Of a stretch of 64,000 bases of DNA, positions 52,716 to 60,996 are shown one piece after another (positions within the stretch are counted from its first letter, which is position 1; the number at the start of each line of letters is the position of its first letter). Under the pieces are notes generated by a model. That model searched no databases. It had not been told where the DNA came from and saw nothing but the letters and a program-made list of their open reading frames with translations. Position numbers and translations under genes: made by a program. Source of the DNA: Paramacrobiotus metropolitanus (Eukaryota; Tardigrada; Eutardigrada; Parachela; Macrobiotidae); contig NW_026570261.1 in the NCBI RefSeq assembly GCF_019649055.1, forward strand, positions 372,001-436,000, written 5' to 3'.

Positions 52716-52812
52716 TCCGACGACTGAGAATTGAACTCAGGACCTGACGGTACCTGTGGCTATGCTAATTATTATCTACAGCCGTCCGCTCTGCCAACTG
52801 AGCTATCGTCGG
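52716..52812 (-). tRNA. trnY(gta): tRNA-Tyr (GTA), intron-containing
   Basis: The minus strand reads CCGACGATAGCTCAGTTGG (acceptor 5' half and A box), then GCGGACGG and the anticodon loop CTGTAG. An intron of about 24 nt follows, then ACCGTC, variable AGGTC, T arm CTGAG-TTCAATT-CTCAG, and TCGTCGG with discriminator A. The 7-bp acceptor stem pairs perfectly. Anticodon GTA and an intron 3' of position 37 are typical of eukaryotic tRNA-Tyr. A T-rich run (TTTTTATTTTTT) just downstream fits a Pol III terminator. A defective copy is at 44919-45005. Confidence 0.92.
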
Positions 52813-53477: not shown

Positions 53478-55330
53478 ATGAACTGGATAATCCGTACCGT
53501 TACCGTCTGGATGCAAGTCTGCGGTCTGTTTCCATATTATCCCAATAGTGAGGCCGCGCTTAATACCAAGAACACAACCAGAAAAACAGCCAGTCGACTG
53601 CACGCGTTTTTAGCGCTGTGGGCATTTCTTCTCTTCGCTCTGTCCATCCTAGTATGCGTATCATGGACTAGTTCCTACGCCCGGATGAGCGAACACGAGC
53701 TACAAAAACTGGAGTTTTTCGCACTGCTCCGGATACTGTTCACCACCGTGATTTATCTACAAGCTCCCTTACTGATCATGATCATGACCATAAAAAGCCG
53801 GTATCTCTACGATATTGTCTGCAATCTGACGGTGTACACGGAATCCATGATATCCCAGAAAGCAGCCACCCGTATCCGCTACGTCATTTGTCTCCTGATG
53901 TCATGGAATGCCATCTACATTGCCGGCTTTATGGCTGCTATTTATAAAACGTTTCTTGAAATCCGAGGGGTTCAAGCTACGGGTTGGGTTGAAAAGTTGG
54001 AAGTTTTGGATTTAACTCACCGAAAATTCCGATGATTATCACGTGCGTTGCCTCCATGCTGGGTGGAGCCCATGCGGTCAGCTGTGAAGTAGTCCCCCAA
54101 ATGGCTCTCTTAGGTAGTAGCCAATTAAACTTCCAAAAATATTACTCATGTCAAACATTAAAACGACCAAATATCTTCAGAATCCGCTTTATGCGATTTC
54201 ATGACATAAAATGATAAAATAACGGATTAACAAAAACGAACTGACTGTTGAATAGTAATTAAAAAACTAAAATGGCATTCGTTTATTTTGAATTCTTTTC
54301 TTTGCTTATAAGTGATAACCAAAAGCTTTTGTAGATACGGTTAAAACTTATTATTTTTTATATTTTTAAAGCTATATTTTTAAAGCTTTTAAAGATGAAC
54401 GTACTAAAGTTATTCTGTTGAGTCTCAATGCTGATTTTAGGCACTGTACTTTACATGGGGGCGGCCTATCAACAGATTCGCCGTGATGTGTACAGAGTAT
54501 TACATGAATTTGCGCCAAAACAGGAAGAGCCGACCGCGCAGCAGTTGGAGGAACTACAGCTCAAGTTCAAGCGACTCCAACTGTTTGTCCACGACCTGGA
54601 TGGTGTGTTTGCGGGATTCTCGTTGTTCACTTTTGTTAAAGATATAATCTGTCTGGCCGCCGTACTGGGCGCGGCGATAACAGCACGGGATCCCACGGAC
54701 AATCCGTATGCTAAATATGTGGCTAGAGACATGACGGTTGTCATTGGTGGTCTAGGACTGGTCAATGCTTGCATCAAGTTTGGTATTTGTATCGCGTGTC
54801 AAGAAACGGTAAACCAACTATTTCTTATGCAGCAAAAAAAACAAGCATATACGTAGCGGAAAGATTTTCGTGATGATTTAAAATTTGAATGCATTGGAGG
54901 TTCCGTCGATCAAGGTGGCTCTTCAACGGACGGCGGTGTTCTTCCACGATGCACCCATAATTCGGAGCAAATGCGAAAGTTTCATCGTAGTGTGTGGTGA
55001 TCATAGTAATGCGATCACGGTGGGAGGTTTCTACCGGATCGATAGAGAATTCATCCGTGCGGTAAGTGTCGTGCCGGCGTATGTTTACTCAGCAATTACG
55101 TTGGTGTAATCAACAAACACATATCTTTATATTAGTACACAGAATGTGCAATGTGGCAGCTTATTTTGTAGATCGCTGAGATCGTGCTGACCTACGGAAT
55201 ACTCATTTACCAGACCCACGACACCAAAATGGATATTCGGGGACTAGTGTCCAATAAGCACTTTGAGATCTTCGAGGCGCGCATGGGCAAATGTGCTGGA
55301 TTCAGCAACCACAGCTTAGCATTACTGTAA
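53478..55330 (+). pseudogene. Gustatory-receptor-like (7tm_7 type) gene A, single frameshift
   Basis: Exons 53478-54113, 54441-54808, 54900-55061, 55172-55330 join in phase except for one lost base near 54007 (reading EKLEVL then GFNSPKIPM). With that aside, it aligns gap-free along most of its length with the intact neighbour at 56555. Features: N-terminal VCGLFPYYPN; several TM helices; LEFFALLRILFTTVIYLQAP; FVKDIICLAAVLGAAITARD; ITVGGFYRIDREFI; and a last helix LTYGILIYQTHDTKMD, matching the TYhhhhhQF hallmark of insect GR/GR-like receptors (Q then T here). If not frameshifted it would be about 441 residues. It has an extra intron (54114-54440) that gene B lacks. It is either a young pseudogene or a base error in the assembly. 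Confidence 0.7.
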
Positions 55331-56554
55331 TAAAGGAAGCATATCAATGAAATCATCTGGTTTAAAAGCTGCAGCAAATTTGTATTAAAATTTGCCTGTG
55401 TCATTTTTTTTTGCAATTTGTATCTCTAGTTTCGTGGTGCGCTAGATTCATATCTTGAATTATTGAAAAAATGCTCTAAAAATGGTTTCCGTTCTTAATT
55501 GGTAGTTATGGGAGTGGTATGCAACAGAACCAGGTAGGATAAGAAACGCACGTTTAGTGCACCAAAACGCGTTTAACTGTTTTGCCAAAATCTATCAAAA
55601 ATTAACGGAAGTTACTCCTTTACCCTTCTATGTATTCGAGAACGAAAATTCTCAGGAAAATGTATGCACTATACAGATTAGCTGGTTGGAACATGGAAGT
55701 AGCATCTATACTTGAAATATGAAACAACGACAAAAGATAACGAGACTTTAGATAGTCTCTAAATATAAGAAACCCATGATCCATTCACTCAGTGCTCATT
55801 TGTTTCTTTTTCCGTCTTCGTACGGCGTAATGTCATTTATGGGGCCTACGAACATTAGGCTATCTGTTGCGTACCGCCCACCCCATGGTTATACAGCGCT
55901 GGTACGGCGTTGATCGATGCTCACTTCCCAGCTAATTTCTGTTTTGCAAAGGTAGCGATAACATCTCCACCCGCCACACCCGACTTGTTTGCTGTGATAT
56001 GACTCTGTCGCCAATAAAGGGGGCTTTATGTCTTTTATGTTCGGTACAGGCCTGGAAATCGACCAACGTGCACGGCGCTGAACGCACAAGTGCGCATCCG
56101 ACACTGTTCCCTAGCCGAGAACTTCCACATGCCCACACGGCACTCGCCGTTCCGACGAAAGATGCAAAAATGCAAGTAGAACGCACTTTAGTTAGTTTTT
56201 TTTAAAAACAGGTCGGTGTGCCAGAGCGTATGTATATCACTGGAGTTGTCAGAAAGGCAAAACTTCCAAACGAAAGGCATTCCTGCCATTGCACGATGCT
56301 GTTTCTCGAATTTCGCGTAAATAATTCATCGCATGACACAATATTTCGATATTGTATTGCATATGCAGCTGTTATGGTAATTCTGTACAAACACTGTGCC
56401 TGCGAATTGACATACCATCGATCCTGAGCCTCCGCAGACCCGGAGATATTTCTTAGCTGGCAGTACTGCCAGCCTTAATCTCGGCTTCCTACAAGTCAGC
56501 AGTTTTAGGCGCGCGAGTATAAATCGTCCAAAAGTTCTTATAAACCGACCAAAA
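55331..56554. other. Intergenic between the two GR-like genes
   Basis: Frames at 55889-56205 and 56218-56427 show no domain. A TATAAAT at 56518-56524 lies 31 bp before the ATG of gene B; this is close for a TATA box but plausible if the 5' UTR is very short. Confidence 0.45.
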
Positions 56555-58050
56555 ATGACCTGGTTTGTGCGGATGATTGCGTTTTGTATGAAGCTTTTTG
56601 GCTTATGGCCATACAACAGCAGTGCCACGACAGTATACCCGAAAACCGGCGAAAGGCAGCGCTTCCAGTTCAGCCCATACCTAGCCTGCTGGGCATTTGT
56701 GATATTCGCAATGTCTCTTTTTCATTGTCTCTCGTGGACAACAACCTACCTGCACATCAATGCGAAAGACCTCCAAGAACTGGAATTTTTTGCTCTGCTC
56801 CGAATATTCTTCAGTACGGTTTTAATGGCCCAAGCGCCGCTGCTGCAGATTACCATATGCAGCAAAATCCGGCACCTTTTTGACGTCACGTTCAAATTAA
56901 TCACTTTTGTCGAAGATTTTACATCACCAGCTCTGAAGACCCGATCGCTATACGTTATTATCGTCTTGTTAATATGGAGCATTGTGTATTGCACGGGTAT
57001 TATCGGAGGTGTTTATCAGAGCTACGACGATCTGTTGCTCTACACAGACAGTTCTTGGATGATGCCAGTACCGTTATTGGGAGCCATGTCACCGCAGCGA
57101 ATCCCGATTATCGTTGCGGCAGTATTCGCGATGATATGCGGGGCGTATGCCGTACTGAGTGAATCCGTGACCCAGATGCTGCTGTTCTCTGCCATACTGT
57201 ACATTCATGCAGCGTACCAACAGATGCAAACTGAAATGGATGAATTAACGCTGGATGCCAAGAACGAAGAAGTATTGGTACAGCAGATGGAGAAAATGCA
57301 GCTTAAGTTTCAAAAGCTGCAATTATTTGTGAACGATCTCAACGACATATTTTCGGGGTTTATGTTTCTGACCTTTATCAAAGACATTATTTGCTTAGCA
57401 GCGGTTGTGGGCGCTGCGATTACCGCACTGGATCCCAGCCAGACAGACCTGTTGCAGTGGTTCGCCCGGAATATGACCTTAATTATTGGCGGTCTGGTTT
57501 TGGTAAACGCGATGATAAAGTTATGTACCTGCACCCTCTGTCACGAGAAAGTCAGTGCCACACTTACATTAGATTCGCTTTCAATAAATACTGTATAATA
57601 AAAAGATAATAAATCATTAGATTTAAAATTAAAATAATTAAGTCTACAAAAGCTAGTTTTTCTCTTCTAGATTGATGATGTCAGTTTAGCGCTGCAGCGT
57701 GCTGCCGTTTCCATTGATTGTGTGCATTTACGCCTCCAAATCGACAATTTCCTTCGGCTAATAAGAACGGGAAGTCACAGTATCACCATTGGTGGCTTTT
57801 GTAAGATTGACCGCGGCTTCATTCGATCGGTCAGTGCTGTACCGAGTGTTTCTCTTCGAGAGCCCACATATTTTCCTAATTTTCTTTGCAGTTCTTTGCA
57901 ATCCTCCTCACTTACGGTGTACTCATTTACCAAACACACGACACCAAGATGGACATCCAGAAACTGGTTTCAAATCAGCGCTTCGCTGCTTTTGAATCAC
58001 ACTTCGACAAGTGCTTCGCCAATTGTACAGTGCCGGCTGAAGCCACTTAA
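56555..58050 (+). CDS. Gustatory-receptor-like 7TM protein (7tm_7 type) gene B, 437 aa
   Basis: Three exons: 56555-57550, 57671-57829, 57892-58050, all phase 0, 437 residues. About seven TM helices, for example ACWAFVIFAMSLFHCLSWTT, LRIFFSTVLMAQAPLLQITI, SLYVIIVLLIWSIVYCTGII, FLTFIKDIICLAAVVGAAIT and NMTLIIGGLVLVNAMIKLCT. After a conserved SITIGGFCKIDRGFIRS segment, the last helix reads LLTYGVLIYQTHDTK. This matches the GR signature TYhhhhhQF in TM7 except for the final F. Three late helices split by short phase-0 introns are also typical of GR genes. Family members are membrane chemoreceptors or ligand-gated cation channels with an intracellular N-terminus. The long loop with charged residues (QQMEKMQLKFQKLQ) looks helical or coiled. 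Tandem duplicate of gene A. Confidence 0.8.
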
Positions 58051-58793: not shown

Positions 58794-59334
58794 ATGGAGG
58801 CGATACTTGTTTTTTACGTTGTGTTCATGGCTGCCTGTACATCTGCCCAGAACGGTGAGATTCGCGATTTTTTAAGAGCGTTTTTTATCGTGCTATAGTT
58901 TTTTTCTTTAATTTTGATTAGATTCCCCTTTACCAAAGAAAATCACCACTGGGAAACTTTTAACTACTGTCCCGGGCAAACAAGCCGAAAATTCGAACAT
59001 CGTGTACGCTGTGCCAGGCAACTTAGTGACCATTTCCTGTAACGCATCCATCGAGCTGAATCTCAACGAAACGACTACTTTTACCCTGCAAATTTTCAAG
59101 AATTCACAGTCCATGCGCAACGTCCTTCTCACTTATCTAAACATACCACCGCGGAAAATTCTGCTGCCGTTGAATGGGTGGAAGGACCGAAACATAACGT
59201 TGTATTTTCAAGAATACCCGTTGGTCTATCTTCCCAATACCTCGGTGCAAGATGAAGCCACCTATGTGTGCTGTGTCAACCTGGAGTCGCGGTACCGAGC
59301 ATTTGTTAGCCGCACAAAATTAAAAGTTTTATGA
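58794..59334 (+). CDS. Secreted single Ig-like domain protein, 157 aa
   Basis: Exon 1 is 58794-58854 (signal peptide MEAILVFYVVFMAACTSAQ) and exon 2 is 58922-59334. The intron is phase 1, typical of Ig-domain genes. The mature part has one Ig-like fold: PGNLVTISCNAS (first Cys), several N-glycosylation sequons (NASI, NETT, NITL, NTS), then QDEATYVCCVNLES (the D-x-A-T-Y-x-C signature before the second Cys) and a closing strand TKLKVL. No TM or GPI signal, so it is predicted to be secreted. The usual core Trp is not obvious. The function is unknown; binding or cell-surface recognition is only a family-level guess. An AATAAA signal follows at 59406. Confidence 0.75.
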
Positions 59335-60830: not shown

Positions 60831-60996
60831 ATACTTACCTGGACCCGGAATGGCGCAGTTCACGATTTGCCCATCCCCATCGGAGTGGTCCCATTGCACT
60901 TCCGGGATTATGAAGGTGGCCTCTTCGGTCAAAAAGATCGGGGTAGGGGGTCAGAATTTTTGATAGTTGGGGGACTGCGTTCGCGCTATCCCCTTC
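60831..60996 (+). ncRNA. RNU1: U1 snRNA
   Basis: Starts with ATACTTACCTGG, the invariant U1 5' end that pairs with splice donors. It contains CCATTGCACTTCCGG (stem-loop II signature), the Sm site AATTTTTGATAG, and then GGGGGACTGCGTTCGCGCTA-TCCCC, the strongly conserved stem-loop IV. Total length about 166 nt, right for U1. The order and spacing of all four elements fit. The stem-loop I region (TGGCGCAGTTCACGATTTGC) is more diverged from the vertebrate form. Likely Pol II/PSE-driven. Whether this copy is expressed cannot be told from sequence alone. Confidence 0.92.

Follow-up and report, generated by a model that had tools for sequence, protein, structure and literature searches.

A tandem pair of gustatory-receptor-family genes, probably encoding ligand-gated channels, in the tardigrade Paramacrobiotus metropolitanus

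Introduction

What kind of protein is encoded by two neighbouring tardigrade genes whose last predicted helix resembles that of the insect gustatory receptors (GRs) but ends in threonine, and how are these genes related to each other and to the rest of the genome? The genes lie in the window, the whole 64-kb stretch of Paramacrobiotus metropolitanus DNA analysed here, which has a GC content of about 43%. The reading we favour, at a probability of about 0.88, is that they are an old tandem pair of GR-family 7TM channel genes, that they belong to a lineage-specific clade with a larger tandem array elsewhere in the genome, and that their products are most likely ligand-gated cation channels. In the literature searched, no paper describing tardigrade GRs was found, but the work of Vizueta et al. 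2020, whose title takes in chemosensory families across Panarthropoda, may to judge by that title already catalogue them.

Results

Structure of the two genes

The two genes are on the same strand and the limits given for the pair in the earlier note proved to be exact, the first base being that of the gene 1 ATG and the final base that of the gene 2 TAA (Table 1). Gene 1 has four exons. Gene 2 is intact, has three exons and encodes 437 aa. The late introns had been described as phase 0 and this was borne out for both genes, each having two such introns with GT-AG ends. LTYGxLIYQTHDTKMDI is likewise present in both last exons and a segment of the type ITxGGFxxIDRxFIR precedes each of them. The exon 2 length of gene 2, 159 nt, is common to gene 2 and most of the modelled paralogues.

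Table 1. Positions of the gene pair, its exons and other features in the window.
Feature	Position	Strand	Description
tRNA-Tyr(GTA)	52716..52812	-	intron in anticodon loop
Gene 1	53478..55330	+	ATG to stop
Gene 1 exon 1	53478..54113	+	S0 to S4 region; holds the one-base frame break
Gene 1 extra intron	54114..54440	+	GT-AG, phase 1, 327 bp
Gene 1 exon 2	54441..54808	+	S4 to S6 region
Gene 1 exon 3	54900..55061	+	S7a region with ITVGGFYRIDREFIR; phase-0 introns either side
Gene 1 last exon	55172..55330	+	S7b pore helix TYGILIYQT, HDTKMD tail, sequon NHS, stop
Gene 2	56555..58050	+	intact, ends in TAA
Gene 2 exon 1	56555..57550	+	332 aa, S0 to S6
Gene 2 exon 2	57671..57829	+	159 nt, S7a region with ITIGGFCKIDRGFIR
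Gene 2 last exon	57892..58050	+	S7b pore helix TYGVLIYQT, HDTKMD tail, sequon NCT, stop
Signal-peptide-like start and ORF	58813..59334	+	3' of gene 2; start MEAILVFYVVFMAACTSAQN, then ORF
ORF	58918..59334	+	Cys pattern like that of a secreted immunoglobulin-like domain
U1 spliceosomal RNA gene	60831..60995	+	98.1 bits (gathering score 69.5)

The frame of gene 1 exon 1 is broken by one base at the AAAA run in GTTGAAAAGTTGG, near 53990-53996. The exon follows the homologous frame up to ~53990 and homology to gene 2 then resumes in another frame. Gene 1 can be aligned over its full length and, beyond the break, its frame is intact to the stop codon with good splice sites. The break stems either from faulty assembly or from gene 1 being a young pseudogene. 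The published assembly of Paramacrobiotus sp. TYO was made from Nanopore reads and polished with Illumina reads (PMC8277472) and, if this is the assembly used here, the break could reasonably be put down to a homopolymer error left in the sequence. The extra intron of gene 1 has no counterpart in gene 2 or in the modelled paralogues. Good splice sites bound these 327 bp and join the reading frame, and so an intron is a likelier account of them than a disrupting insertion. Intron gain would not be confined to gene 1, since a more distant relative on contig C154 (L048) has likely gained an intron after residue 77.

Among the other features around the pair, the tRNA-Tyr gene is found by ARAGORN when introns are allowed and is missed by a scan in bacterial mode.

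Membership of the GR family

The earlier note had called the genes GR-like and had proposed the Pfam profile 7tm_7 as a check. Both proteins match this profile significantly and over almost its entire length, gene 2 with E=1.5e-15 and 57.8 bits (residues 11-401) and gene 1, with X placed at the frame break, with E=1.5e-13 and 51.2 bits (residues 6-405), the curated cut-off being 26.6. No match to 7tm_7 was obtained with gene 2 in reversed form or after block shuffling that keeps the hydropathy profile, and thus the match of the two proteins is not a product of chance. All ten aligned paralogues also matched. The 7tm_6 profile for insect odorant receptors gave a weaker match (E=1.4e-9) to only part of the protein, found only one of the ten paralogues and was not the best match.

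When a profile built from ten paralogues was searched against all PDB sequences, the only significant matches were insect GRs, the fructose receptors Gr43a and BmGr9 (8zdz, 8jm9 and 8x82, E-values from 2.6e-5, for 8zdz, to 3.5e-4). The S7a-S7b region aligns with TY and Q conserved, the predicted topology is the same and, in the 8zdz alignment, YQT of the query lies opposite IQF of the receptor. The likeness is very distant as a search of the PDB with the single sequence of gene 2 matched nothing, no receptor being found, and the link to the solved GR structures comes from the paralogue profile. AlphaFold2 models of gene 2 exon 1, alone or with pieces of gene 1 and made without an alignment, had mean pLDDT values of 54.9 and 50.9; a Foldseek search of the PDB using the first exon-1 model gave nothing significant, a result without meaning at such a low pLDDT.

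In 14 of 14 clean paralogue models the final two introns have phase 0, the second of them exactly six codons ahead of TY. The last exon of gene 2 has the same arrangement, with TY six codons after a phase-0 intron. A phase-0 intron six codons before the TYhhhhhQF-type motif has been reported for the GR genes of insects, Daphnia pulex and nematodes (PMC2680840); the final F of that motif is T in the tardigrade clade. Apart from the profile match, nothing points to common descent more strongly than the position of this intron. Judged from these sequence comparisons, membership of both genes in the GR family is well supported, and the earlier assignment therefore holds.

Predicted topology and C-terminal tail

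The gene 2 protein has seven hydropathy peaks and its longest loop joins helices 4 and 5. The number of K+R residues alternates along the loops, 5,1,5,1,4,1,7,4 in order (inside 5,5,4,7; outside 1,1,1,4), and for this reason an N-in/C-out topology, opposite to that of GPCRs, is predicted from hydropathy and charge. By the same measures gene 2 has the GR type of build, with a length within about 350-500 aa, seven helices, the N terminus inside and the longer loops intracellular.

In the clade the residues following the gate are HDTKxD or a close variant and open a tail that is at least ~30-40 residues long. By contrast, some Daphnia GRs stop right after QF (PMC2680840). An N-glycosylation sequon occurs in 15 of the 16 modelled C-terminal tails, compared with 4.2 expected from shuffles, though these tails come from related genes and are hence not independent cases. 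The excess fits with an extracellular C terminus.

The clade within the genome

The superfamily had been expected to be sparse outside arthropods, and in this genome it is not. A search of 169.8 Mb in 533 contigs found 61 places matching 7tm_7 with E<=10, of which about 30 exceed the curated cut-off; the places were matched exon by exon and so do not give an exact gene count. Nearest to gene 2 are two genes on C38 and the ten modelled genes of a tandem array at 137-175 kb on contig C114, where degenerate copies are also found near 151 and 112 kb. More distant relatives are on C72, C82, C154 and C43. The clade, referred to below as the T clade, consists of about 20 genes across contigs C41, C114, C38, C72, C82, C154 and C43, with membership taken from the relatives search and the maximum likelihood tree and with the C43 placement unsure owing to its long branch. 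In the tree the window pair grouped together with a support of 99/96 and was sister to the C38 and C114 genes, the whole forming a group of 14 with a support of 100/99.

Gene 1 and gene 2 are 43% identical and their synonymous sites are saturated. The pair is thus an old tandem duplication, and its two copies are not of recent origin. For seven pairs of close paralogues from other parts of the clade, the dN/dS ratio was 0.19-0.28; dN is well below dS in these pairs, and so this branch of the GRs is under purifying selection. For gene 1 against gene 2, dS is saturated. Single-base frame breaks were observed in several members of the C114 array (L028, L030, L034, L037, L039 and L042), with L039 and L042 appearing degenerate.

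The outer-gate position

Residues 392-400 of gene 2 are TYGVLIYQT. Alignment to BmGr9 places T400 at F444 and L396 at I440 and keeps the Q; in BmGr9, F444, I440 and Q443 have gate functions, with F444 forming the outer gate (PMC11100771). The tardigrade clade differs from BmGr9 in having T at this position together with a conserved charged C-terminal tail. Compared with the motif (T/S)Yhhhhh(Q/K/E)(F/L/M), the T, Y and Q positions match and the last residue, T, falls outside F/L/M.

The TM7 exons of the genome were scanned with the gate position excluded from the scoring, and shuffled loci scored at most 2. The 20 clade members found have T at the gate in 18 cases, A in one and K in one, the last being a degenerate copy. 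They keep L/V at the inner-gate I440 position and also the gating glutamine. The pore-lining TY is kept in the clade, with GY in much of the C114 array. The other GR subfamilies of this genome (on C10, C70, C34, C3, C77, C29, C51, C8 and others) match 7tm_7 as the T clade does, and the TM7 exon begins at the same place in the members sampled. However, they differ at the outer gate, where 15 of the 16 places have M (six), L (five) or I (four), and one, on C49, has A, with T absent; this tally covers places scoring above 14, and more divergent subfamilies below the cut, mostly with E then I or V, fall outside it. Two TM7 exons, that of L060 on C51 (TYVLFVYQMQDQKQD) and that of L068 on C49 (TYFLLVYQAWEGKHD), seem to stand midway from the T clade to the subfamilies with a hydrophobic gate.

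The earlier idea of a lineage-specific clade in which T replaces F is therefore upheld as regards the clade, but the change is not peculiar to the window pair as it characterises a clade of ~20 genes. The TM7 motif is regarded as diagnostic yet not definitive, and departures from it have been described that may still allow a protein to work as a channel (PMC7746228). Thus the change from F to T does not by itself make a new kind of protein.

Discussion

Each product, with itself or with a sister receptor, would form a tetrameric ligand-gated cation channel having a cytoplasmic N terminus, an extracellular C terminus and a pore built by S7b. A small molecule binding among helices S1-S6 would shift S5, and S5 in turn the pore helix S7b. 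The gate would be a single hydrophobic layer with a polar ring of T on top, closure being due mainly to the inner hydrophobic ring, and the conserved charged HDTKxD collar would sit outside the membrane. By analogy with known receptors we infer a putative tetramer, ligand gating, a chemosensory role and an effect of T on gating.

Seven predicted helices alone cannot separate GR from GPCR families, and the proteins might in principle belong to a GPCR or other 7TM family and carry the motif by chance. This would be extremely surprising given that it is contradicted by the Pfam matches, the PDB profile, the shuffle controls and the position of the last intron, a hallmark of GR genes. GPCR families are absent from the Pfam matches even at E=10 and the topology predicted here is the reverse of theirs. 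A role other than chemosensation for a channel of GR-family origin, for example in osmotic, hydration or light sensing or in development, is harder to dismiss, though we consider it unlikely. The threonine at the outer gate and the conserved charged tail suggest altered gating, and homologues beyond insects do serve other roles, the nematode proteins LITE-1 and GUR-3 in light sensing and GRL of Nematostella in development. However, repeated tandem duplication and divergence, as seen in the C114 array, is the usual pattern for chemoreceptors.

The GR-family reading leaves the state of gene 1 to be considered. Gene 1 could be a pseudogene, with protein made from gene 2 only and one working receptor at the locus, and the one-base break and the extra intron make this a serious contender. 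Single breaks are also found in several members of the C114 array and are usual among fast-evolving receptor families. Nevertheless, the break in gene 1 is a single base within an AAAA run, the remaining frame is open to the stop codon and the splice sites are good, and homopolymer errors are common with Nanopore reads polished with Illumina reads, as used for the Paramacrobiotus sp. TYO assembly (PMC8277472). The branch length is 0.38 for gene 1 and 0.93 for gene 2, the reverse of what would be expected for an old pseudogene. On balance we lean somewhat away from a pseudogene and towards a pair of GR-family channel genes.

The gene pair mainly adds another case to a known family, the T at the gate being its one point of special interest. 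A bolder suggestion, which we make only tentatively and rate as improbable, is that the ~20 genes are a tardigrade-lineage GR subfamily in which the hydrophobic outer gate has been exchanged for threonine and a charged extracellular HDTKxD collar added. If true, these would be 7TM channels of a class that differs in its gate, its ion selectivity or its resting leak, perhaps serving tardigrade-specific cues. The T clade would be a natural variant at a site where mutation of BmGr9 matters, and may thus offer a ready comparison for the gating of 7TM channels.
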